Of a stretch of 64,000 nucleotides of DNA, positions 12,813-63,742 are shown piece after piece. Source of the stretch: Neptunitalea chrysea (GTDB lineage Bacteria > Bacteroidota > Bacteroidia > Flavobacteriales > Flavobacteriaceae). Position numbers and translations under genes: made by a program. The notes beneath the pieces were generated by a model, which saw only the letters and a program-made list of their open reading frames with translations, searched no databases and was not told where the DNA came from. The stretch's first letter is position 1. Each line of letters opens with the position of its first letter. The stretch is from NCBI RefSeq assembly GCF_027924145.1, contig NZ_BRVP01000005.1:1-64000 (forward strand). The letters are read 5' to 3'.

Positions 12813-13661
12813 ATGAAGAATATTACACTTGCCATTATTTGTGCATTTGTTGGGTTTATGAGTTATGCTCAAATAAAAACACCACAAGCTAGCCCAGGAG
12901 CTAAAATTGAACAAACAATTGGTTTAACAGAAGTTACTGTTACCTATTCAAGACCTTCTATGAAAGGACGTGAGATTTTTGGAGACTTAGTTCCTTATGA
13001 TAAAATTTGGAGAACGGGTGCCAATGCCAATACAGTAATTACATTTAGTGAAAATGTATTTTTTGGTAACACCGAAGTAGAAAAAGGTTCATACGCTATC
13101 TATACGAAACCGGGGAAAAAGAGTTGGGAAATGTATTTATATGCTGATACTAACAATTGGGGTGCTCCTAGAGATTTTGATATGGAAAAAGTGGTAGCAA
13201 AGGCTACGGCAGAAGTAATGGAAGTACCTTTTCAGGTAGAAACATTTACTATTGACTTTAATAATTTAAGAAACAGTGGTGCAGATTTAGAAATGATTTG
13301 GTCTAATGTATATGTCGCATTTCCTATTAAAACTATGACTAAAGAGCAAACAGTAAATAATATTAAAAAGGTAATGAGCGGACCATCTTCTCGTGATTAT
13401 TATAGTGCTGCTGTTTTTTATTACACTGAGAATATGGAAATGAAAAAGGCTGTAGAAATGATTGACAAAGCAATTGAAATGGAAGGTGATAAGGCGGCAT
13501 TTTATATGTATCGTCAGCAGTCATTAATTCATGATAAAGCGGGTGATAGAAAAGGAGCTATAAAAGCAGCAAGAATTTCTTTACAGAAATCTAAGGAAGT
13601 GGGAAATCAGGATTATGTTAAAATGAATGAAGATACCTTAAGAGAGTGGAAGGCACTATAA
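12813..13661 (+). CDS. DUF2911 domain protein, secreted
   Basis: About 282 residues. A signal peptide (MKNITLAIICAFVGFMSYAQ) is followed by the DUF2911 domain with SPGAKIEQTIGLTEVTVTYS, RPSMKGREIFG, VPYDKIWRTGANANTVITFS and a C-terminal tetratricopeptide-like region (KKAVEMIDKAIEMEGDKAAF). The function of DUF2911 is unknown; the protein is probably periplasmic. I choose the internal ATG because it starts a clean signal peptide; the upstream ATG at 12771 overlaps a -7-like box (TGTCTTTG at 12772) and would add a poorly matching 14-residue extension. Confidence 0.88.
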   Translation: MKNITLAIICAFVGFMSYAQIKTPQASPGAKIEQTIGLTEVTVTYSRPSMKGREIFGDLVPYDKIWRTGANANTVITFSENVFFGNTEVEKGSYAIYTKPGKKSWEMYLYADTNNWGAPRDFDMEKVVAKATAEVMEVPFQVETFTIDFNNLRNSGADLEMIWSNVYVAFPIKTMTKEQTVNNIKKVMSGPSSRDYYSAAVFYYTENMEMKKAVEMIDKAIEMEGDKAAFYMYRQQSLIHDKAGDRKGAIKAARISLQKSKEVGNQDYVKMNEDTLREWKAL

Positions 13662-36138: not shown

Positions 36139-39100
36139 TCATTCAACTAGTCGTACAGTTTCTTGTTGCAAGTCTAGATCAAAGCTGTTCAAACTTTCTT
36201 CTTCTTTTAGATTCAATTTTGTTTCTCGATAGGCTTTAGGAGAAATGCCATAAAAGTTTTTAAAAGAGGAAGAGAATTTTGAAATGTTTGAAAATCCAGT
36301 TGCATAAGTAACTTCAGAGATGGTTAATTTTTTGTCAGATAGTAAGATCCCTGCTTGTTTTAATCGTATATTTTTGATTAAATCTCGAGCTGACTGATTA
36401 GTTAGCTCTTTCAATTTTCTATATAAGTGAACCCTGCTTAAGCCAATTTCAGAAGCCAACATTTCAACATTCAATTCAGGATTGTTCAAATTTTCATTAA
36501 TTACAGTAATAATTTTTTGTATTAATTTTTCATCCGAAGATTTTATGGAAATTTTATCTAATTGTTCTTCCGGGATTTGGTTGCCTCTATAGGTGTTTTT
36601 AAGTAGTTCACGATTGTGAATTAAATTTTGAACAGTTTTTGTTAAAATTTGAAGATTAAATGGTTTTGGAAGGTAGGCATCGGCACCAATATTTAAGCCT
36701 TCTAAATTATCTTTTTCTCTAGATTTAGCTGTAAGAAGAATGACCGGAATGTGATTAATATTGATGTGTTGTTTTATTTTTTTGCACAAGCTAATACCGT
36801 CTAGCTCTGGCATTTTTACATCACTGATGACTAAATCATATGGAGTTTTTAATATCATAGATAAAGCCTCTTTTCCATTCTTACTTTGTGATACATGATA
36901 GTGTTCAGAGAATTCCTTGGTAAGATACGCTCTCATCTCGGCATCGTCATCTACAATAAGGATTTTATATTTGCTTTTATTTTTGTTTTTTTCATTTTTA
37001 ATGGATAGATCGGTTATGATTGGTATGGGCTGATATTCATCTAACGAGTTTGTGGTGTTTATAGACTCTTCAAATTTATCGCTATTAGATAAAAGTGAAT
37101 TTTTTACTGGAATTTCAATAATGAAACAACTGCCTTTTTTGTCTAGATTATTTTCGGCTTTGATGGTTCCATGATGCGATTTTACAATGGATTTTGTCAA
37201 ATGTAAACCGATTCCCGTACCTTTTGTGATATTCCCGGGAGATTGGTAAAATCTATCAAATATGTGGGTTGTATCTTTTTCTTCTATTCCTTTTCCATTG
37301 TCTATAATTTTAATCTGAAGAGTATCTTCTTTATGTGCTAATTCACAAAGACTAAGTTCAATTTTTATTTTACCATTATTAGGAGTGAACTTATACGCAT
37401 TCGAAAGTATATTCTGTATAATTTTATCAAAATATCTAGGATCTACATCTACAAACAAAAAGGGTAGCTCATGTTCAAATTCAAATTCTATATTTTTATC
37501 TTCTCGCTGATCTTCAAATAAAGATGCCATCTCTTCTATAAGAGTGATGATTTCTGTTTTTTGAAATTTCATTTGAATTTGACCTGCATCTATTTTTCGC
37601 ATATCCATTAATTGATCAATTAACAACATAATCCGATCACAGTTTCGCTTCATTATTTTATAGGAATATTGTCTTTTTACATCTGTATCGGTTACAATTA
37701 ATTTTCTTAGAGGATTGGCTAATAATGAAATAGGGGTCTTTATTTCATGAGCTATATTTGTAAAAAACTGTAATTTGGCTTCATGAATTTGGTTAATATA
37801 GTTTTGCTCTCTGATTTTTTCTCGTGTTTTAAATTTTTGACGATATAAGATAATGATTGCAGAGGCTATTGATAACACAATACATATATAGATTGCAATA
37901 GCTAAGGGAGTTAAATACCAAGGGTTGCGGATTATTATAGAGATACTTTTTTCAGGAGAAAAGGTCTTGTACTCTTTAGCTTTTATTTTGATATTATAGG
38001 TTCCTGGGGGTAAATCATTGAATGTAGCCAAATTGACACCTTGCGGAAGTTGATTCCACTTTTCATTGTTCATGGAGTAAAAGTAGGTAAGTCTTTCAGA
38101 TTCGATATAGTTTGATGTCGCAAACTCTATAGCAAAAGTGTTGTCGTTGTAGGCTAAGTTAATATTCTTTACCTTAGATATTTGGTCATTTAGTATATTG
38201 TTTTTTCCAGATTTAGTTCCTTTCACAACTTCTTTATTATTAAGATATAGAGCCGTAATTTTTAAATCAGGAATTTTTCCTTCATCAGTAATATGTTCAG
38301 GATCAAAATAGGTAATGCCATTGATACCTCCAAAGTAAAGGTTAGACTCATAATCATTACAGGCAGCACCTTTGGTAAATTCATTTCCTTGTAGACCATC
38401 ATTGTAAAAGTAATTTGTAAATTGTTTTTTGGTCATATCAAATTTTGAAATTCCATAATGGGTACTAATCCATAGATGGTGATCATTGTCTTCCTTTATG
38501 GCGCAAATAAAATTGGAAGGAAGACCATCACTATCAGTGTAGTGAATTAGTTTTTGGTTATTTACTTCTTTGTAAAATATACCATCAGTGGTGCCAATCC
38601 ATAGATTTCCTAGCGTATCCTCATAAATGGTGTTAATAACTTTGGTGTCAAGGATATGATTGGCGCCTAATGTATCGATAAAGCTACCGTTAGAGAGGTT
38701 TAAGGCACATAGTCCAGCGTACGTTCCTATATATAAAGTATTGTTGGTTCCAAGGTGCAAACAGTTTACCCAATTATTGAACAATCTATTTTCTTTTGCA
38801 TCTACTGGGGTTTCAGATTCTTCTATAAAACCATAATTTGAGATTTTTCCAGAATCTATATTCATAGAATATATTCCGGAGCCCATTGTAGCAATCCATA
38901 GATTGTTTTGTGTGTCTTCGGTTATATCATAAATGTGTTCTACTTTTTGACTTTGGGAGCCACTTAGATTATCCATATAGTTAAAAGTTCCATGGATTTT
39001 ATCTACTAAAGCAAGACCATTTAGATATGTTCCAACCCATAGATTATAATGACTATCTTCATAAACACATAAAATAGTTGTATTGATACCACTACGATAA

Positions 39101-40248
39101 TGAATTGTATGGCCATCTTCACGAATTCCATAAATACCATCACCATCAGTACCAACCCATAAGGTATGTTGCTTGTCTTTGTAGAGTGCGGTTATATAGT
39201 TTGAACCAATAAGATTTTTTTCAAATGATTTATTTCCGATGTAATGGAATTTGTTTGCGGTGGGAGGTACTTGAAGTAACCCTTTTTGAAAGATACCTAA
39301 CCATAGGTTTCCTGTGTTGTCAATGATGATGGAATGTACTTTAGCTTTGGATAAATTAAATTGTGAAATTCCAAAATTGGACGCTATAATCTGTTGTGTA
39401 TCGGTATTGAATGATTTAATCCCGCAGCCATCTGAACCTATTAACAACTGTTTTTTTTCAGTTAGGTAAAGAGTTTTTATTGGAAGATTATCGTTATATG
39501 GATCTTTTATTTTTTTAAAAATATTATTTGAAGCGTCATATGCATAGAGGCCACCATTGAGTTTACCAACATAAAGGGTATGATGATGGTCTTCAACAAT
39601 ACTTGTTATATTACCATCAGGCTCATCGTATTGAAAATAATGGGTGCTTTTTTTATCTACATCATATTTATACAATCCTTTGTTTTGGGTAATAATCCAT
39701 AGATTTTCATCATGGTCTTCAAATAATTTATAAATAAATCGAGTAGGGGTTAGGCCGGTTAACTGTTGGCCGTAAATTGTACCTTCTTTGGTGTGTAGTT
39801 TAAATATTCCTTCTCCTGAAGTAGCAATGAGAATATCACCATTCTTACGTTGAATCATTGAAAATATATGGGGAAATACTTCTTTTCTAGAGTTGTTATA
39901 CAAAGAAACTTGTGAGAAAGATTGATTTTTATGATCGTATTGTTGCAAACCATTAATGAAACCAAAAAATAAATTCCCTTTCAAATCCTCAAAAATAGCT
40001 CGGGAATAATTATCTAAAACCGTCGTGGCGTCCCCTTTTTGATGTTTGAACACCTTCATTTTAGCCCCATCAAATTTATTTAGCCCGTCTTCTGTAGTAA
40101 TCCAAATAGTTCCATTAGAATCTTGAAAAACTTGGTTGATCAAGCTACTGGATAATTCGGTATCTGTTGAAAATAGTCTACCTTTTTGTCCTAGTGCTCT
40201 TGTAAAGCAGCATAAGAAGAGTATAACGAATAATGTGGTTGATCTCAT
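36139..40248 (-). CDS. hybrid two-component system regulator (HTCS)
   Basis: 1369 residues combining sensor kinase and regulator. A signal peptide (LFVILFLCCFTRALGQ) is followed by periplasmic two-bladed Reg_prop propeller repeats to about residue 690 (motif NLWIGTxDGI repeated), a Y_Y_Y domain (to about 770), a transmembrane helix at about 779-802, a kinase domain with phospho-His834 in FFTNIAHEIKTPISLL, HATPase motifs (NILSNAYKFTPN, DNGKGIEE, GTGIGLHLTK), a receiver with Asp1143 in VISDVKMPELDG, and an AraC-type HTH at about 1261-1342. It should sense a xylan-derived oligosaccharide in the periplasm and activate the GH10, susC and sRNA promoters. The gene is divergent from the GH10 operon. 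Confidence 0.96.
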   Translation of the reverse strand: MRSTTLFVILFLCCFTRALGQKGRLFSTDTELSSSLINQVFQDSNGTIWITTEDGLNKFDGAKMKVFKHQKGDATTVLDNYSRAIFEDLKGNLFFGFINGLQQYDHKNQSFSQVSLYNNSRKEVFPHIFSMIQRKNGDILIATSGEGIFKLHTKEGTIYGQQLTGLTPTRFIYKLFEDHDENLWIITQNKGLYKYDVDKKSTHYFQYDEPDGNITSIVEDHHHTLYVGKLNGGLYAYDASNNIFKKIKDPYNDNLPIKTLYLTEKKQLLIGSDGCGIKSFNTDTQQIIASNFGISQFNLSKAKVHSIIIDNTGNLWLGIFQKGLLQVPPTANKFHYIGNKSFEKNLIGSNYITALYKDKQHTLWVGTDGDGIYGIREDGHTIHYRSGINTTILCVYEDSHYNLWVGTYLNGLALVDKIHGTFNYMDNLSGSQSQKVEHIYDITEDTQNNLWIATMGSGIYSMNIDSGKISNYGFIEESETPVDAKENRLFNNWVNCLHLGTNNTLYIGTYAGLCALNLSNGSFIDTLGANHILDTKVINTIYEDTLGNLWIGTTDGIFYKEVNNQKLIHYTDSDGLPSNFICAIKEDNDHHLWISTHYGISKFDMTKKQFTNYFYNDGLQGNEFTKGAACNDYESNLYFGGINGITYFDPEHITDEGKIPDLKITALYLNNKEVVKGTKSGKNNILNDQISKVKNINLAYNDNTFAIEFATSNYIESERLTYFYSMNNEKWNQLPQGVNLATFNDLPPGTYNIKIKAKEYKTFSPEKSISIIIRNPWYLTPLAIAIYICIVLSIASAIIILYRQKFKTREKIREQNYINQIHEAKLQFFTNIAHEIKTPISLLANPLRKLIVTDTDVKRQYSYKIMKRNCDRIMLLIDQLMDMRKIDAGQIQMKFQKTEIITLIEEMASLFEDQREDKNIEFEFEHELPFLFVDVDPRYFDKIIQNILSNAYKFTPNNGKIKIELSLCELAHKEDTLQIKIIDNGKGIEEKDTTHIFDRFYQSPGNITKGTGIGLHLTKSIVKSHHGTIKAENNLDKKGSCFIIEIPVKNSLLSNSDKFEESINTTNSLDEYQPIPIITDLSIKNEKNKNKSKYKILIVDDDAEMRAYLTKEFSEHYHVSQSKNGKEALSMILKTPYDLVISDVKMPELDGISLCKKIKQHININHIPVILLTAKSREKDNLEGLNIGADAYLPKPFNLQILTKTVQNLIHNRELLKNTYRGNQIPEEQLDKISIKSSDEKLIQKIITVINENLNNPELNVEMLASEIGLSRVHLYRKLKELTNQSARDLIKNIRLKQAGILLSDKKLTISEVTYATGFSNISKFSSSFKNFYGISPKAYRETKLNLKEEESLNSFDLDLQQETVRLVE

Positions 40249-40553: not shown

Positions 40554-40580
40554 TGTAACCTAGAGAACATAAATTGTAAC
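40554..40580 (+). promoter_or_regulatory. HTCS operator O1 (TGTAAC direct repeat)
   Basis: TGTAAC at 40554 and again at 40575 (21-bp period). The first copy extends to TGTAACCTA, as in the two other operators. A 21-bp spacing puts both sites on the same face of the helix, as expected for AraC-type domains of a dimer. A -7-like box TAACTTCG starts exactly 37 bases after the second copy. Confidence 0.75.
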
Positions 40581-40611
40581 GAGGGGAACTATAGATTTAT
40601 ATTGGAGTTAC

Positions 40612-40619
40612 TAACTTCG
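40612..40619 (+). promoter_or_regulatory. promoter P1 -7 box (TAACTTCG)
   Basis: One mismatch to TAnnTTTG, and the same TTCG variant as in the susC promoter. Spacing from O1 equals that at the GH10 and susC promoters. No -33 TTTG, which fits an activator-dependent promoter. Predicted start near 40624. Confidence 0.65.
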
Positions 40620-40623
40620 CATA

Positions 40624-40760
40624 GTAATTAGTAAACAATTAATTACGGCGTTCATAAGGAATCATTTAATAAAGATATAGAGGATAACCCGAGTTGAGAT
40701 AGCTAGGGATATTAATTTTGGTTAGCTTAGAGGAGATATCAATCTCCTCTTGCTTTTTTT
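40624..40760 (+). ncRNA. candidate HTCS-controlled small RNA
   Basis: A region of about 135 nt between promoter P1 and a strong intrinsic terminator. It contains no ATG on the plus strand and no ORF worth naming. It lies upstream of, and separately from, the GH10 promoter. The 5' half is unstructured and AT-rich; the 3' end is the terminator hairpin with a U tail, the layout of a base-pairing small RNA. A 7-base stretch (AATTTTG at 40714) could pair with CAAAATT just before the susC AUG. Alternative: a terminated leader that attenuates the GH10 operon. Confidence 0.55.
40729..40760 (+). terminator. intrinsic terminator of the small RNA
   Basis: AGAGGAGAT pairs with ATCTCCTCT around a 4-base loop, then TGC and a T run. 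It points along the plus strand, yet no plus-strand protein gene lies upstream within this intergenic region. Confidence 0.85.
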
Positions 40761-40817
40761 TATAGAAGTTGTTCTATAAAATGTCTTTTCTTCTATAAGA
40801 TGACAATAAAAAATAGA

Positions 40818-40844
40818 TGTAACCTAAGAATAAATCTTTGTAAC
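40818..40844 (+). promoter_or_regulatory. HTCS operator O2 before the GH10 operon
   Basis: TGTAAC at 40818 (extended to TGTAACCTA) and at 40839, period 21 bp. The -7 box of the GH10 promoter starts 37 bases after the second copy, matching O1 and O3 exactly. Confidence 0.8.
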
Positions 40845-40875: not shown

Positions 40876-40883
40876 TACATTTG
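40876..40883 (+). promoter_or_regulatory. promoter P2 -7 box (TACATTTG) of the GH10 operon
   Basis: A perfect TAnnTTTG, with no TTTG at -33. Expected start near 40888, giving a leader of about 74 nt to the GH10 ATG. Confidence 0.7.
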
Positions 40884-40961: not shown

Positions 40962-42086
40962 ATGAAAATTAGAAATTTTTTGTGGATATGTTTTGTAGGT
41001 ATAATCAGTTGTACCAAACCTATAGAAAAGAACTCTTTAGACAGTTTTAAAGGAGTACTAAATAATAGATTTTATATTGGAACAGCTTTGAGTAATGAAC
41101 AATTGATAAGAGAAGATAATAAAATTTTAAGAGAAGCTGCTAATCAATTCAATGCCATTGTTCCTGAAAATTGTATGAAGAGTGCTTTAATACACCCGCA
41201 AAAGGAAGTGTATAATTTTACATTAGCAGATCGATTTATTGAATATGGCTTACAACATGATATGTGGATGACAGGTCATACCCTTATATGGCATTCTCAA
41301 ACTCCTGATTGGTTTTTTAAAGATAGTAATGGAAATGAGGTAAAACGTGATGAATTGATACATCGTATGAAGGATCATATAACAACATTAGTACATAGGT
41401 ATAAAGACTTTATAAAAGGCTGGGATGTTGTTAATGAAGCGATTGAAGATGATGGTTCATATAGGGAAACTAAGTTTTACAAAATTATTGGACCTGAATA
41501 TATTAACCTTGCTTTTAAATTTGCACGAGAAGCCGATCCAAAAGCAGAGCTATATTATAATGATTATTCTATGACATTGCCAGAAAAAAGAGCGGGTGTT
41601 ATTAGAATGATAAGAGCATTGCAACGACAGGGAATAAGAGTAGATGGTATTGGTATGCAAGGGCATGTAAATCTTACATCTCCTAGTATAGAAGCATTTG
41701 AAAATAGTATTGTTGCTTACGCAGATCTCGGAGTTAAAGTAATGATTACAGAATTTGATATTTCGGTGCTACCGTTTCCGAATGAGCACTTAGGGGCAGA
41801 TATAAATACCACTGTAAGTTATAAAGAGCAATTGAATCCATATAAAGAAAAATTGCCAGATACTATTCAGCAAAAGTTCAATGATAGGTGCTTTGATTTT
41901 TTTAAGCTCTTTTTAAAGTATGATAAAGCCATCACAAGAGTAACGGTATGGGGAGTAAGTGATGAATATTCATGGAAGAATGATTGGCCTATTACAGGTC
42001 GTACAGATTATCCTTTATTGATAGGAAGGAATCATAAACCTAAAGAAATTTTAAAGCAATTAACCACGTATGTAGCTAATAAATAG
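40962..42086 (+). CDS. GH10 endo-1,4-beta-xylanase, lipoprotein
   Basis: 374 residues. A lipoprotein signal ends in VGIISC (lipid Cys17), so the enzyme is likely anchored to the outer membrane or periplasmic side. The (beta/alpha)8 GH10 domain shows WMTGHTLIWHSQTPDWFF, the acid/base Glu159 in GWDVVNEAIEDDGSYR, and the nucleophile Glu264 in MITEFDISVLP, with VTVWGVSDEYSWKNDWP near the end. It cuts the xylan main chain between beta-1,4 linked xyloses. First gene of a plus-strand operon with xylA, driven by P2. Confidence 0.97.
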   Translation: MKIRNFLWICFVGIISCTKPIEKNSLDSFKGVLNNRFYIGTALSNEQLIREDNKILREAANQFNAIVPENCMKSALIHPQKEVYNFTLADRFIEYGLQHDMWMTGHTLIWHSQTPDWFFKDSNGNEVKRDELIHRMKDHITTLVHRYKDFIKGWDVVNEAIEDDGSYRETKFYKIIGPEYINLAFKFAREADPKAELYYNDYSMTLPEKRAGVIRMIRALQRQGIRVDGIGMQGHVNLTSPSIEAFENSIVAYADLGVKVMITEFDISVLPFPNEHLGADINTTVSYKEQLNPYKEKLPDTIQQKFNDRCFDFFKLFLKYDKAITRVTVWGVSDEYSWKNDWPITGRTDYPLLIGRNHKPKEILKQLTTYVANK

Positions 42087-54943: not shown

Positions 54944-54952
54944 AAAATCACT

Positions 54953-54962
54953 CAATCGATTG
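54953..54962. promoter_or_regulatory. LacI operator upstream of the GH67 promoter
   Basis: A perfect palindrome CAATCGATTG. Its centre is 58 bp from that of the downstream site, and the promoter lies between them, so looping by a tetramer or a two-site repression is conceivable. Confidence 0.7.
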
Positions 54963-55016
54963 CATGAATGTTGCGTATTGTGTTTTTAGAAGATGTTAGC
55001 GGTTATGGTTGTTGTG

Positions 55017-56033
55017 TTAATAGCGTTTCGAAGATTTTCTAATAATGATGCTTGTGTCTAAAACAAATATTTCGGAAACACCGGCTATAGTTCTATCTGT
55101 GGTGTGTTCAAGAATTCGTTGAAATGAAAGCTCTCCCATTTTATAAGCAGGATGTGATACGGTAGAAAGGCTGGGTTCTATAATAGAAGCTATGGGGTCG
55201 TCGTTAAAACCGATGATGGCAATATCTTCAGGAATTCGTATTTGTTGTTCTTTTAAATATGTAATAGCACTCAGGGCTGCGGTGTCATTTGCAGAGAATA
55301 TTCCGTCGGGTGGTAGGGGAAGTTTTAACAATTTTTCGGTAGCTATTTTTCCTTCTTCAAAGCTGAGGGATTTCAAGTTTATGATGAGTTCTTTGTCTAT
55401 AGGAATGTTATGGTGTTTCAAGGCATCAAGATAGCCACTTCTTCGTTGGTTATATACGTTTAAATGCTGTGATCCGGCAAAGTGAGCAATTCGTTTGCAG
55501 CCTTGTTCAATAAGGTGTTGTGTGGCTTGGAAAGCCGAGTTGTAGTTGTCTATGATAACTTTGTAGCTGTTAAATGAAAGCGGAACTCTGTCTACAAATA
55601 CTACTGGGATGCCTTGGTCTGTAAACTCTTTGAAGTGGTCGGTGTTTTTGGTTTCCATGGAGAGTGAAACAATTAAACCACTAACTCTGCTTTGGAGAAG
55701 GGTATTTGCGTTTGTAATTTCATCCTTATAATGATCGTTTGATTGACTAATTAAAACGTTGTACCCTGATTTTCTAGCAGCATCTTCAATACCGCTAATA
55801 AGTGTAGATACAAACGGACGGTTAATACGAGAAATGAGTATCCCAATCGTTTTGCTTTGTTTGCTTCTTAAACTGGCTGCTTGTGTGTTGGGTTTGTATC
55901 CCATTTCTTTAGCAGCTTTTTGAATATTTAAGGTAGTTTTTTTTCCGATGCTCTTATGGTTGTTTAGGGCTCGTGAAATAGTGCTTGGTGAGTAGTTGAG
56001 TTTTTTAGCAAGATCGTAGATGGTTATACTCAT
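55017..56033 (-). CDS. LacI family transcriptional regulator
   Basis: 338 residues. The DNA-binding HTH and hinge read ITIYDLAKKLNYSPSTISRA, then KSIGKKTTLNIQKAAKEMGY. The periplasmic-binding-like effector domain follows (SKTIGILISRINRPFVSTLI, DNYNSAFQATQHLIEQGCKR, FSANDTAALSAITYLKEQQI, SFQRILEH). The effector is unknown; the regulated genes suggest glucuronate or a breakdown product such as fructuronate or mannonate. I use the ATG because the first codon of the longer ORF is TTG. The gene lies between its own operators and reads toward the GH67 operon, 144 bases upstream. Confidence 0.93.
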   Translation of the reverse strand: MSITIYDLAKKLNYSPSTISRALNNHKSIGKKTTLNIQKAAKEMGYKPNTQAASLRSKQSKTIGILISRINRPFVSTLISGIEDAARKSGYNVLISQSNDHYKDEITNANTLLQSRVSGLIVSLSMETKNTDHFKEFTDQGIPVVFVDRVPLSFNSYKVIIDNYNSAFQATQHLIEQGCKRIAHFAGSQHLNVYNQRRSGYLDALKHHNIPIDKELIINLKSLSFEEGKIATEKLLKLPLPPDGIFSANDTAALSAITYLKEQQIRIPEDIAIIGFNDDPIASIIEPSLSTVSHPAYKMGELSFQRILEHTTDRTIAGVSEIFVLDTSIIIRKSSKRY

Positions 56034-56204
56034 GGCGTGCAATAATGTTTAGTTGCGTAATTAATTTTGGAAGTGTAAATATATTAAAAATGAAAGTATG
56101 CTAAAGCAATGAGGTGGTTTTTGGGCGATTTCTCTATGTTTTTGGGTTTTTGTGTTAAAATAGAAATAGAGGCTTTGTTTGAATTTAAATTGTGTAAATT
56201 TACG

Positions 56205-56214
56205 CAATCGATTG
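56205..56214. promoter_or_regulatory. LacI operator between lacI and the esterase gene
   Basis: A perfect palindrome CAATCGATTG identical to the site upstream of the GH67 operon. It sits 65 bases before the esterase ATG and 172 bases before the lacI start, so it may control both divergent genes. Confidence 0.7.
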
Positions 56215-56278
56215 TTTTTTTTAATCCGTAAGGAAAAGTTCTCGTCGTTTAAATGAGTTACAAACAAAGATATATTGT

Positions 56279-58546: not shown

Positions 58547-58573
58547 TGTAACCTACTGAAAATTATATGTAAC
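58547..58573 (+). promoter_or_regulatory. HTCS operator O3 before susC
   Basis: TGTAAC at 58547 (extended to TGTAACCTA) and at 58568, period 21 bp; the second is followed by AAA as at O2. The -7-like box TATCTTCG begins 37 bases after the second copy. Confidence 0.8.
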
Positions 58574-58604: not shown

Positions 58605-58612
58605 TATCTTCG
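58605..58612 (+). promoter_or_regulatory. promoter P3 -7 box (TATCTTCG) of susC
   Basis: One mismatch to TAnnTTTG and the same TTCG ending as P1. No TTTG at -33. Expected start near 58617. Confidence 0.65.
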
Positions 58613-58702
58613 AATTGTAATTTAAACAATCAAAAAGAAAACGTTGTAGTTTTTAGGTATATGATGCTTATTCTACAGCTTTAACCTATCAAAATTTATT
58701 TT

Positions 58703-61700
58703 ATGCAAAGTGTAGTTTTAAAGAGTTCTTCCCAACGATTTGGAGATTCAAGAAGAGCTAAAATAGTCTGTTCTTTAATTTTGATTTTATTTTCGGTTTT
58801 CATGTATGGTCAGGAAACCGTTACAGGTAAAATAACAGACAAAGATAAGGTGCCTTTACCTGGAGTAAGTATTCAGGTAAAAGGAACTGATAAAGGAACG
58901 TCAAGTGACTTTGATGGTAATTATACTATTGAGGCACCTACAAAAGATGCTGTATTAGTTTTTTCATATGTAGGTTTTAAGAACGAAGAGGTACTTGTAG
59001 GTAATCAGAAAGTTATTAACATCACTATGTCAGATGATCTTGAACAACTTGGAGAAGTAGTAGTGGTTGGATATGGTACTCAAAGAAAGGAAGCTATAAC
59101 TGGTTCTGTTGCTTCTTTGGCCAGTGATGAGCTTAAAGAAGTACCATCTCCTAATGTATCGCAGGCTTTACAAGGTAGGGTTGTAGGAGTTGAGCTGTCT
59201 CAAACTTCTTCAAAGCCAGGGGCAGCTATGCAGATTCGTATTCGAGGTACGCGTTCTTTAACAGCAAATAATGATCCGTTAATAGTGTTGGATGGAATTC
59301 CTTTTTTCGGTTCTATTGGAGATATCAACCCTAATGATATTAAAAGTTTAGATATTTTGAAAGATGCATCGGCCACAGCTATTTATGGATCTCGAGGAGC
59401 TAATGGTGTTATTTTGATTACAACCACCAAGGGATACAAAGGACAAACAGCTAAATTCACCTATAATAGTTATGTGGGGTTAAAAACATTATTTGCAAGG
59501 TACCCAATGATGAATGGTCCAGAATTTGTTAAGTTGCGAGCATATGCTGGGATGTTTACTCAAAACGGAGAAGACGAATATGATGATGTGAATACAGATT
59601 GGCAGGATTTATTGTACTCAAATGCTCTTCTCACAAGTCATGATTTTGGTGTTTCAGGTGGAGGTGAAAAAGGAAGTTATAATTTTGGGTCAGGATATTA
59701 CCGTGAAGAATCTGTACTTCCTGGGCAAGACTATCAACGATACTCATTAAGAGGTACTGTAAATCAGGAGATAGGAGTTTTTAAATTCGGAATTACAACC
59801 AATAACAACTATTCTGTTTCAAATGGAAATAACTTAGGTCTTTACACAACCCTAAGTACAACACCTATAGCTAATCCTTATAATGAAGATGGATCTTTAA
59901 AAGACATTGTAAAATTGTCGGCGGATAATCAGTATGTGTATACGAAAGAGCGTATAGAAGGATTAGGAGATAAATGGATTGATAGAACTAGGGCTTTCGG
60001 TACCTATAATAACCTTTATGGAGAAGTAGAAATACCAGGAGTTGAAGGGTTGAGTTATCGTACTAATATAGGTTTAAACTTAAGAGTTTCCAATAGTGGT
60101 TCTTATACAGGAGAAGGCGTATTTAGTTCAGAGCCTACAACTTTATCAAGAGCTTCCGTAGGAAATTCTTTCTTAACTCATTGGGTATTGGAAAATTTAC
60201 TAACCTATGATCGTACCTTTGCTAAAAAGCATCATTTTAATGTTGTTGGATTGTATTCAGCAGAAGAGCGTCAGTACAATAGTACATATACTTCTGCTAC
60301 TGATATTCCTTCAGATGCCTTTCAATTTTATAATTTAGGACAAGCTCAAGGAGAAATCACTGTAAATCCTGATTATCAAGGGTATTATAAAAGTGGTTTA
60401 ATGTCTTACATGGCAAGAATCATGTATGACTATGATAATAAGTATATGTTTTCTGCAACCTGGCGTAACGATGGTTCTTCGAGACTGGCTTCAGGTCATG
60501 AGTGGCATAGCTATCCAGCGGTTTCAGCAGGATGGAACGTTACAAGCGAAAATTTCATGAAGGATATTAAAGTAATCAATCAATTAAAATTCAGAGTGGG
60601 TTATGGAGAAACTTCGAATCAATCTGTAGACCCTTATGCTACTTTAGGTAGACTTACTTCAAGACCTTATAATTTTGGAGATGATTATGTGACTGGTTTA
60701 TATGTAACGACATTACCAAATCCAAATTTGGGTTGGGAATATTCGACCACCTGGAACTATGGGGTAGACTTTGGTCTTTTTGATAATCGATTGTCAGGAA
60801 CCATAGAATATTATGTAACTAACACCAAGGATTTGCTATTAGGAGTTAATTTACCTTCAACTTCAGGGGTTAGTAGTTATACAGGGAATGTAGGAGCAAC
60901 AGAGAATAAAGGAATTGAGTTTTCTTTAAAAGGAGTGATAGTTGAAACGGATGATTTCACTTGGGATGCCGGAATTAATATTTATGCCAATAAAAATAAG
61001 ATTGTTTCCTTGGCATCAGGACAAGATAGAGATGAATCAAATTGGTGGTTTGTAGGACATTCTATTAATTCTATTTATGATTATAAATATGAAGGTCTTT
61101 GGCAAGAAGGGGATCCGTATTTAGATATTTTAGAGCCTGGTGGAAATGTAGGAATGATTAAAGTGAAGTATACTGGAGGCTATGATGACGATGGTGTACC
61201 ATTAAGACAGGTTAATGCTGATGATCGCCAAATCATGAATGTGGATCCAGATTTTCAAGGGGGATTTAATACACGTGCAACCTATAAAAATTTTGATTTA
61301 AGCTTAGTAGGAGCATTTAAAAGTGGAGGCTTACTTATAAGTACGTTATATTCATCAGCAGGATATCTTAATATGTTAAGCGGGCGAAGAAATAATGTTG
61401 ATGTAGATTATTGGACCGAAGATAACACAAATGCTAAATATCCGAAACCAGGGGGAATAGAGAATAGCAATAATCCAAAATATGGATCTACTCTTGGATA
61501 TTTTGATGCTTCTTATGTAAAAATACGAGCCATTACATTAGGGTATAATTTTAACCAACAATTTATTAAGGATGTTGGTATAGACAATTGCCGACTTTAT
61601 TTTACAGTTCAGAATCCTTTTGTTCTTTTTTCTCCTTATTATAAAGAATCTGGAATGGATCCTGAAACAAATTCCTATGGGGATGAGAACCAGGCAGTAG

Positions 61701-61786
61701 CATCTTACAAAGAAAGATTTTTAGTGATTGGAACTAACACCCCTTCCAACAGAAACTTCTTATTAGGTTTGAACTTAACATTTTAA
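58703..61786 (+). CDS. SusC-type TonB-dependent outer membrane receptor
   Basis: 1027 residues. The signal peptide ends in VFMYGQ. An N-terminal carboxypeptidase-regulatory-like domain follows (GKITDKDKVPLPGVSIQVKG, DFDGNYTI), then the TonB box region VVVVGYGTQRKEAITGSVAS, the plug (DPLIVLDGIPFFGSIGDINP, ILKDASATAIYGSRGANGVI) and a 22-strand barrel ending in RNFLLGLNLTF. It imports oligosaccharides bound by SusD. It lies 9 bases before susD and is under the O3/P3 module, so the pair is HTCS induced. Ligand inferred as xylan fragments. Confidence 0.97.
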   Translation: MQSVVLKSSSQRFGDSRRAKIVCSLILILFSVFMYGQETVTGKITDKDKVPLPGVSIQVKGTDKGTSSDFDGNYTIEAPTKDAVLVFSYVGFKNEEVLVGNQKVINITMSDDLEQLGEVVVVGYGTQRKEAITGSVASLASDELKEVPSPNVSQALQGRVVGVELSQTSSKPGAAMQIRIRGTRSLTANNDPLIVLDGIPFFGSIGDINPNDIKSLDILKDASATAIYGSRGANGVILITTTKGYKGQTAKFTYNSYVGLKTLFARYPMMNGPEFVKLRAYAGMFTQNGEDEYDDVNTDWQDLLYSNALLTSHDFGVSGGGEKGSYNFGSGYYREESVLPGQDYQRYSLRGTVNQEIGVFKFGITTNNNYSVSNGNNLGLYTTLSTTPIANPYNEDGSLKDIVKLSADNQYVYTKERIEGLGDKWIDRTRAFGTYNNLYGEVEIPGVEGLSYRTNIGLNLRVSNSGSYTGEGVFSSEPTTLSRASVGNSFLTHWVLENLLTYDRTFAKKHHFNVVGLYSAEERQYNSTYTSATDIPSDAFQFYNLGQAQGEITVNPDYQGYYKSGLMSYMARIMYDYDNKYMFSATWRNDGSSRLASGHEWHSYPAVSAGWNVTSENFMKDIKVINQLKFRVGYGETSNQSVDPYATLGRLTSRPYNFGDDYVTGLYVTTLPNPNLGWEYSTTWNYGVDFGLFDNRLSGTIEYYVTNTKDLLLGVNLPSTSGVSSYTGNVGATENKGIEFSLKGVIVETDDFTWDAGINIYANKNKIVSLASGQDRDESNWWFVGHSINSIYDYKYEGLWQEGDPYLDILEPGGNVGMIKVKYTGGYDDDGVPLRQVNADDRQIMNVDPDFQGGFNTRATYKNFDLSLVGAFKSGGLLISTLYSSAGYLNMLSGRRNNVDVDYWTEDNTNAKYPKPGGIENSNNPKYGSTLGYFDASYVKIRAITLGYNFNQQFIKDVGIDNCRLYFTVQNPFVLFSPYYKESGMDPETNSYGDENQAVASYKERFLVIGTNTPSNRNFLLGLNLTF

Positions 61787-61795
61787 AAAAAAACA

Positions 61796-63742
61796 ATGAT
61801 GAAACGTAAAAATATAAAACAAATTGTAGGAATCTTTTTAGCGGTTTTATTTACGGTTGGTTGTTCAGATATCTTAGAAGAGGAACCAAGAAGTATTTAT
61901 ACTCCCGATTATTTTAAAACAGAAGAAGGTGTGTATTCAGGACTTACTTCATTATATGCCCACCTTAGGTATATTTATGGAAACGGATATTACCTAAATG
62001 CTTGTTTAACAGGAACAGATGAGTATACGTATGGTCATGGTGCAGATGGTAATTTTAAGAATATGGATCTTTCAGGTGTAGGTACTTTAACAGCTTCTTC
62101 TAGTCGTTCGGATGTCCTTTGGAATAATACATTTTACAATATCAATACAGCTAGTGGAATTATTGAGAATGCTTCTGCTGTAGGAATAACAGAAGACTTA
62201 ATCGCAGAAGCTCAGTTTTTTAGAGCATTTGATTATTTCTTATTAGTGCAAACTTTTGGGGGAGTACCTTTAGATTTGGGTGCAGGAGATTTGGCTTTTA
62301 ACACTAGTACTGTAAGAACGTCAATCAGAAATACGGTTCCAGAAGTGTATACGCTGGCTGTTTTTCCAGATTTAATTTCTACGGTCAATAATTTACCTAG
62401 TAATGGTCGTGTTACAGGGGGAGTTACAAAAACACTTGCAAGATTGTATTTATCAAAGGCCTATCTTACCTATGGTTGGTGGTTAGAAAACCCTAATAAT
62501 ATAGCTACCTATCCTGAGGCGAACCGTACGGATCCGGATGGACATGATGCTCAATGGTATTATCAACAAGCATATGATGTTGCAATGGAGGCTATCAATG
62601 ATCCAGGACCTTTCGGATTGGAGGATACGTATTACGATGTGAATGTGGGATCGAATGATCGAAATAAAGAAATGTTATTATATGCAGATCATACGGAAGG
62701 GAGTGAATATTATGATGGCTCTAGTCATTCCTATAATTCAGGATCATCTCCAGGTAATTTTGCGGTATGGATGGTTACATGGGATTACACCTTCTTACAG
62801 AGTGCCGAAGATACTAGTTGGAGCTCTGTGGTTAGATCTGTACAACGAGAAGCGGCTCAGGCTTATGGGCGTCCTTGGAAATGTATGGCTCCCCCTATTG
62901 GAGTTTTCACAAATACGTTTGCGGATAAGACTAATGACTCACGATATGATGGAACATTTGTTACTTCTTTTAGAGGAAACTGGAATAAAGGAGGATTGAC
63001 TAATAGTGTATTGTATAATGCCAATGGTTTAGCAGTAGAACCCGGTGACGCTATTCTTACTTTTTTGGATGAAGAGCCTTCCGATGCTATTGATTATTCC
63101 AATTCATCTTATGATAGCAATGTGGGTGCTGGGGTGTTACCAGGACGATCTGATTTTGTGATTTCACCTCATGGAATTAGTCGTTATGCTTGGCCTAATC
63201 TTTGGAAAATAGGAACCTATAGAACGGATAATGGGGATGGACTTGGACAACCTAATGGAGGGATTACAAGACCTTTCCCTATAGCTAAATTCTCTGAGCT
63301 TTATTTTATAGCAGCAGAAGCAGCAGTGAAAGGAGCTTCTGGTAGTATGAGTGCTCGTGAGCTTGTAAATGTTATTAGAGCAAGAGCGGGTGTTTGGAGA
63401 TGGGATAACAATGGAAATATTGAGAAAATAGAAGATGATAGCTCTGAAATGATGGCAGCTACTCCATCTGTAATTGACATTGATTATATTTTGGCAGAAC
63501 GTTCTAGAGAGTATTATGGTGAAGGATATCGTTGGTATGATTTGGTAAGAACTCAAAAGTGGAGTGAGTATGCGGCTTCCTATCAAATATGTGGCCCTGG
63601 TTTAGGGGATCATACCCCTGAGACTTTTACACGAACTATAGAAAACTATATGTATCTAAGACCCATACCTCAAGGTCAGTTAGATGCTATGGAAATGTCG
63701 GAAACTGATATAAGTGCTTATCAAAACCCGGGATATGAATAA
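61796..63742 (+). CDS. RagB/SusD family surface glycan-binding lipoprotein
   Basis: 648 residues. The lipoprotein signal ends in LAVLFTVGCSDILEEEPRS (lipid Cys about 23). Typical SusD segments follow: YTPDYFKTEEGVYSGLTSLY, EAQFFRAFDYFLLVQTFGGV, TLARLYLSKAYLTYGWW, and at the C-terminus the AELYFIAAEAA-like segment FSELYFIAAEAAVKGA, IDYILAERSREYYGEGYRW and YDLVRTQKW. It caps the SusC barrel and binds glycan at the cell surface. Partner of the preceding SusC. Confidence 0.97.
   Translation: MMKRKNIKQIVGIFLAVLFTVGCSDILEEEPRSIYTPDYFKTEEGVYSGLTSLYAHLRYIYGNGYYLNACLTGTDEYTYGHGADGNFKNMDLSGVGTLTASSSRSDVLWNNTFYNINTASGIIENASAVGITEDLIAEAQFFRAFDYFLLVQTFGGVPLDLGAGDLAFNTSTVRTSIRNTVPEVYTLAVFPDLISTVNNLPSNGRVTGGVTKTLARLYLSKAYLTYGWWLENPNNIATYPEANRTDPDGHDAQWYYQQAYDVAMEAINDPGPFGLEDTYYDVNVGSNDRNKEMLLYADHTEGSEYYDGSSHSYNSGSSPGNFAVWMVTWDYTFLQSAEDTSWSSVVRSVQREAAQAYGRPWKCMAPPIGVFTNTFADKTNDSRYDGTFVTSFRGNWNKGGLTNSVLYNANGLAVEPGDAILTFLDEEPSDAIDYSNSSYDSNVGAGVLPGRSDFVISPHGISRYAWPNLWKIGTYRTDNGDGLGQPNGGITRPFPIAKFSELYFIAAEAAVKGASGSMSARELVNVIRARAGVWRWDNNGNIEKIEDDSSEMMAATPSVIDIDYILAERSREYYGEGYRWYDLVRTQKWSEYAASYQICGPGLGDHTPETFTRTIENYMYLRPIPQGQLDAMEMSETDISAYQNPGYE

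Follow-up and report, generated by a model that had tools for sequence, protein, structure and literature searches.

A terminator-capped promoter with the operator of an HTCS regulon in a predicted glucuronoxylan PUL of Neptunitalea chrysea

Why should a promoter that carries the operator of a set of xylan genes be followed by a terminator instead of a gene, and would the short RNA that it is expected to produce regulate the PUL in which it lies? We investigated this question in a window of 64,000 nucleotides from Neptunitalea chrysea (contig NZ_BRVP01000005.1, positions 1 to 64,000 of the forward strand). The gene cluster in this window, which we read from its domain content as a glucuronoxylan PUL, contains on the minus strand an HTCS gene (36139..40248; Pfam Reg_prop, Y_Y_Y, HisKA, HATPase_c, Response_reg and HTH_18), the presumed activator, which includes an AraC-type HTH. 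A GH10 xylanase gene (40962..42086; Pfam PF00331, 1.8e-93) and a susC homologue with TonB-dependent receptor domains (58703..61786) are encoded on the plus strand, the latter followed by SusD as the next gene at 61796. Further members assigned by Pfam are an AP_endonuc_2 protein, GH43, GH2, GH115, UxuA, SDR, GH67, a LacI regulator and a SASA esterase.

Three plus-strand promoters of the cluster share one operator, the direct repeat TGTAAC-N15-TGTAAC, with a TAnnTT box that starts exactly 31 nt past the second repeat. These are P1 (operator TGTAACCTAGAGAACATAAATTGTAAC at 40554..40580; -7-like box TAACTTCG at 40612..40619), P2 ahead of GH10 (operator at 40818..40844; box TACATTTG at 40876..40883) and P3 ahead of susC (operator at 58547..58573; box TATCTTCG at 58605..58612). 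The -7 consensus of the Bacteroidota is TAnnTTTG. When the whole 3.78-Mb genome was scanned for operator plus box at up to two mismatches, P1, P2 and P3 were the only sites recovered, and the reversed control pattern gave one match. P1 retains its two half-sites, spacing and box intact, and its spacers differ from those of P2 and P3 as much as the P2 spacers differ from the P3 spacers. The membership of P1 in the HTCS regulon is well supported by these features, and all three promoters would be bound and activated by the HTCS. The first-pass annotation had proposed both that P1 has its operator in common with the promoters of GH10 and susC and that P2 begins beyond the P1 terminator; the common repeat, spacing and box confirm the former, and the positions of the terminator (to 40761) and of the P2 operator (from 40818) confirm the latter. 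Among other candidates, a box nearer to the P1 operator (TATATTGG at 40598) was dropped, as the 31-nt spacing in P2, P3 and the relatives selects TAACTTCG at 40612, and a sigma-70 hexamer scan was disregarded because it does not suit Bacteroidota.

We then compared the regulon across the family, using a set of at least 237 genera in which the source genus is represented by two genomes. PULs of relatives were located through HTCS orthologues with 45-53% identity (53% for the best relative). In 11 family genomes with an orthologous HTCS, 15 operator sites near or in the PULs have identical half-sites and the same 31-nt spacing, and each of them lies upstream of a same-strand gene, mostly susC, and also GH43, GH67, a SASA esterase or a sugar transporter (the first gene was typed in all genomes except G620 and G763). 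The exact operator pattern occurred 19 times, in 14 of 397 family genomes, and the reversed control 3 times. Both the PUL and the operator are missing from the other genome of the genus; an HTCS-led search of genome contigs returned only remote HTCSs, and a viral scan one irrelevant match. Since the same operator recurs with the HTCS orthologues, this HTCS and this operator are strongly linked, and the HTCS would bind the operator. Whichever reading of P1 holds, TGTAAC-N15-TGTAAC-N31-TAnnTT is a well-supported signature by which this xylan HTCS regulon can be searched for. Conservation of operator and terminator alike had been looked for in related xylan PULs: the operator and its spacing are kept at the 15 sites of the 11 relatives, and the terminator is not, with neither an orphan operator nor a terminator between operator and gene at any of these sites.

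What follows P1, about 105 nt past its start, is an intrinsic terminator (40729..40761, plus strand) composed of a 9-bp stem with 4 G-C pairs and a tetraloop (40729-40750), followed by TGC and eight T (T tract at 40754-40761); the hairpin with its flanks has a predicted energy of -12.8 kcal/mol. In 1000 dinucleotide-shuffled versions of the interval from P1 to P2 (270 bp), no terminator as strong arose. Seven hairpins in the window pass the strict criteria, this one included, and each of the other six lies about 12-77 nt past the end of a gene or tRNA on its own strand (a tRNA at 560, an HU-like gene at 2774, and genes ending at 13661, 16226, 26098 and 30191). The plus strand has no ATG from P1 to the terminator, and of the frames that open at TTG the longest (15 codons, at 40718) overlaps the terminator stem. 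The first-pass description of a 9-bp terminator with a T tail about 110 nt past P1, with no ATG in between, is therefore accurate, the remaining non-ATG frames being short. Because the terminator is strong, P1 is the only nearby upstream source of plus-strand transcription and the interval has no ATG, we infer a separate transcript about 135 nt long that codes for no protein (plus strand, predicted at 40624..40759, with approximate ends taken from the -7 box and the terminator). That transcription from P1 should end near 40760 without reaching a gene is well supported by the sequence; the interval is best read as yielding a discrete RNA of about 135 nt that is non-coding and is made alongside the xylan genes, and production of this RNA on xylan is probable. 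The transcript is predicted to open with an A/U-rich 5' hairpin (40624..40646, plus strand, -4.5 kcal/mol), which overlaps a stretch resembling the 5' end of the susC mRNA.

The predicted RNA, which is intergenic and lies on the plus strand upstream of GH10, has by sequence the sRNA trait of an own promoter and terminator with no coding sequence. The whole transcript is more stably folded than its shuffles (z -2.5), but the RNA body without the terminator has a z of -0.70, which is ordinary folding. No Rfam family matched the RNA at gathering or permissive thresholds. Accessibility-weighted pairing with 13 PUL start regions, evaluated against shuffled-body RNAs, gave p values of 0.17-0.83 (overall p 0.75). 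We observed no antisense match to susC or any other PUL gene, and a DNA search of the genome returned only the locus itself. Neither in sequence nor in structure was a counterpart found among the 11 genomes with the same regulon; similarity to the leaders of the relatives was at chance level, and a search of 299 family genomes with the intergenic DNA gave just short AT-rich chance matches. With ordinary folding of the body, no Rfam family, pairing to the PUL start regions at chance and no counterpart in the 11 relatives, the step to a regulatory sRNA acting on the PUL is not supported. The proposal of an HTCS-controlled sRNA of about 135 nt thus survives in so far as it describes an orphan promoter with a terminator and no gene, and is not supported in the regulatory role on the PUL that it implied.

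The explanation that we favour, with a probability of about 0.5, is that P1 is a genuine promoter of the HTCS regulon that was orphaned and is capped by the terminator, and that it gives an RNA of about 135 nt, non-coding and without an essential role. In this course of events, the active HTCS would start transcription at P1 from about 40624, polymerase would stop at the intrinsic terminator near 40760, and the RNA would be produced concurrently with the GH10 and susC mRNAs, the cap preventing P1 transcription from running over P2. P1 would formerly have served susCD or a similar operon, which either moved away or gave up its place to the GH10 cassette with P2. Two relatives (G297 and G398) have an HTCS-divergent operator that drives GH43 and then susCD, and in a third (G397) it drives susCD directly; in the source genome P1 occupies this HTCS-adjacent place, yet the gene that comes next is GH10, which has P2 for itself, and susCD is 18 kb away behind P3. 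In addition, the first approximately 20 transcribed bases are alike at P1 (CATAGTAATTAGTAAACAATTAA) and P3 (AATTGTAATTTAAACAATCAA), and from the box onward 26 of 29 paired bases are identical with one 2-nt gap (p 0.0008 in register, and p 0.06 anywhere in the transcribed part). The position of P1 at the place of the relatives' susC or GH43-susCD promoter, together with this likeness of the P1 and P3 5' ends, fits an orphaned susCD-type promoter. Such a promoter accounts for the same facts as an sRNA does, and we favour it because the RNA has no structure, Rfam family, target or conservation that points to a function, and because the terminator far exceeds chance expectation and has the quality of hairpins that mark real 3' ends elsewhere in the window. 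The operator, spacing, box, terminator and missing start codon can be read directly from the DNA; HTCS binding, transcription, the history of the promoter and the dispensability of its RNA are what the explanation would add to them. A point against it is that an unused promoter might have decayed, yet the operator, spacing and box of P1 are intact, while its spacers do not resemble those of P2 and P3.

That same intact operator would be expected if the P1 transcript were a trans-acting regulatory sRNA made with the operon, for example in feedback or feed-forward on this or another PUL. The discrete promoter and strong terminator around a gene-free interval agree with such an RNA, as does an accessible middle region with UUCAUAA, complementary to UUAUGAA, which can surround start codons, and the PUL-acting sRNAs DonS, GibS and FopS provide precedents in Bacteroides (PMC7366714, PMC11697453). 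The pairing, body-folding and Rfam results described above argue against it, and it is absent at 15 of 15 regulon sites in the 11 relatives, so that we consider it possible but rather unlikely. It is improbable that the whole interval from P1 to GH10 is instead a single long leader with an attenuator, in which a conditional hairpin lets read-through add to GH10 expression. The P1-GH10 distance of 343 nt does resemble the susC leaders of some relatives (316-350 nt), and a weak alternative hairpin (40694-40730) extends to the terminator stem; however, this hairpin leaves the stem intact, no antiterminator that unpairs the stem is predicted, and the terminator occurs in 0 of 15 leaders of the relatives. 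Moreover, P2, with the same operator, lies between the terminator and GH10, so read-through would add little.

Little weight also falls on the P1 operator serving mainly as DNA, to which the HTCS would bind in order to autoregulate its own divergent gene or to cooperate with P2, the RNA then being a by-product. The distances from P1 to the start codon of the HTCS (306 nt) and onward to the P2 operator (264 nt) speak for this, but the plus-strand -7 box of P1 sits at the exact activating distance and is followed by a terminator, as for a promoter in use, whereas there is no clear box at such a distance on the strand toward the HTCS. A very short peptide translated from a non-ATG start is highly improbable: the 15-codon TTG frame at 40718 could be its gene, but this frame overlaps the terminator stem, and the remaining frames open only from rare start codons, have at most 20 codons (range 12-20) and look like chance.

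The resemblance to the susC 5' end also admits a variant in which the HTCS drives a dedicated sRNA whose 5' end copies that of the susC mRNA and which acts as a decoy, drawing off an RNA or protein repressor of the susC leader on xylan. We regard this as doubtful at best; if true, it would represent a feed-forward RNA arm of the PUL regulator, and no such case was found described. A separate observation concerns the susC leaders themselves. Half of the palindrome CTACAACGTTGTAG, as CTACAACGTT or in reverse complement as AACGTTGTAG, lies in susC leaders behind the operator in five genomes (58640-58649 in the P3 susC leader; 13691-13700 in L090, 3626-3635 in L069, 4730-4739 in L106 and 2854-2863 in L108), and in none of the other loci compared; it is perhaps the site of a second regulator or an RNA element.

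Close known systems include the DonS-type antisense RNAs of PULs, of which 32 are annotated in B. thetaiotaomicron, some correlating positively with their PUL (PMC7366714, PMC10994844, PMC11697453). They are likewise short (about 78-128 nt), non-coding and PUL-linked (PMC7366714, PMC10994844), but are divergent from and antisense to susC homologues, whereas the P1 RNA comes from between genes on the strand of GH10 and is antisense to no PUL gene. GibS and FopS are similar in kind: they are short, their pairing region has little structure, and they target the start codons of carbohydrate or PUL mRNAs (PMC7366714, PMC11697453). They are trans-encoded, and their transcription starts from promoter motif 2 or from canonical sigma-ABfr promoters, in contrast to the HTCS operator of the P1 RNA and its lack of a significant target among the 13 PUL start regions; the comparison with them was made via Rfam only and gave no match of any kind. 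In Porphyromonas gingivalis, the DNA-binding Bacteroidota response regulator PG0720 activates a non-coding RNA, asSuGR, at a surface-glycan locus (PMC8757827), but that RNA is about 550 nt, antisense and located in an inverted repeat of the capsule operon, which is neither a PUL nor under an operator shared by the regulator. Bacteroides HTCS operators predicted by comparative genomics are, as here, spaced direct repeats ahead of PUL operons, and the alpha-mannan HTCS sites consist of two 16-bp sites with a 5-bp spacer, giving the 21-bp period of the P1-P3 operator; in the part of that account considered here, the operators precede protein operons and none is described before a terminated short transcript (PMC3878776). 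No HTCS-driven sRNA sharing the operator of its operon was found in the open-access literature searched, subscription literature being outside this scope. If the RNA is made and active, a single operator would let the sugar sensor of the PUL govern both enzymes and an RNA regulator, and a major class of regulators would gain an RNA layer. If P1 is an orphaned promoter, PUL rearrangement would leave capped promoters that can be mistaken for sRNAs or later become sRNAs.

Three further features of these loci were observed. The leaders from operator to susC are very long and without a terminator in L072 (4148-4890, 739 nt), L100 (about 690-1320, 630 nt) and L085 (15322-15743, 421 nt); regulatory RNA or small genes may lie within them. 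In the G301 genus and in G145, the HTCS homologues (L041, L042 and L094-L097) have one TAA or TAG within the matched stretch, possibly their own stop codon near the end. Finally, palindromes of the GCAATCGATTG type occur in the source PUL at 54952-54963 and 56204-56215, ahead of the GH67 operon and the SASA esterase gene, both adjoining the LacI-family gene at 55017-56042; the PUL thus seems to contain a second, LacI-type regulon beside that of the HTCS.
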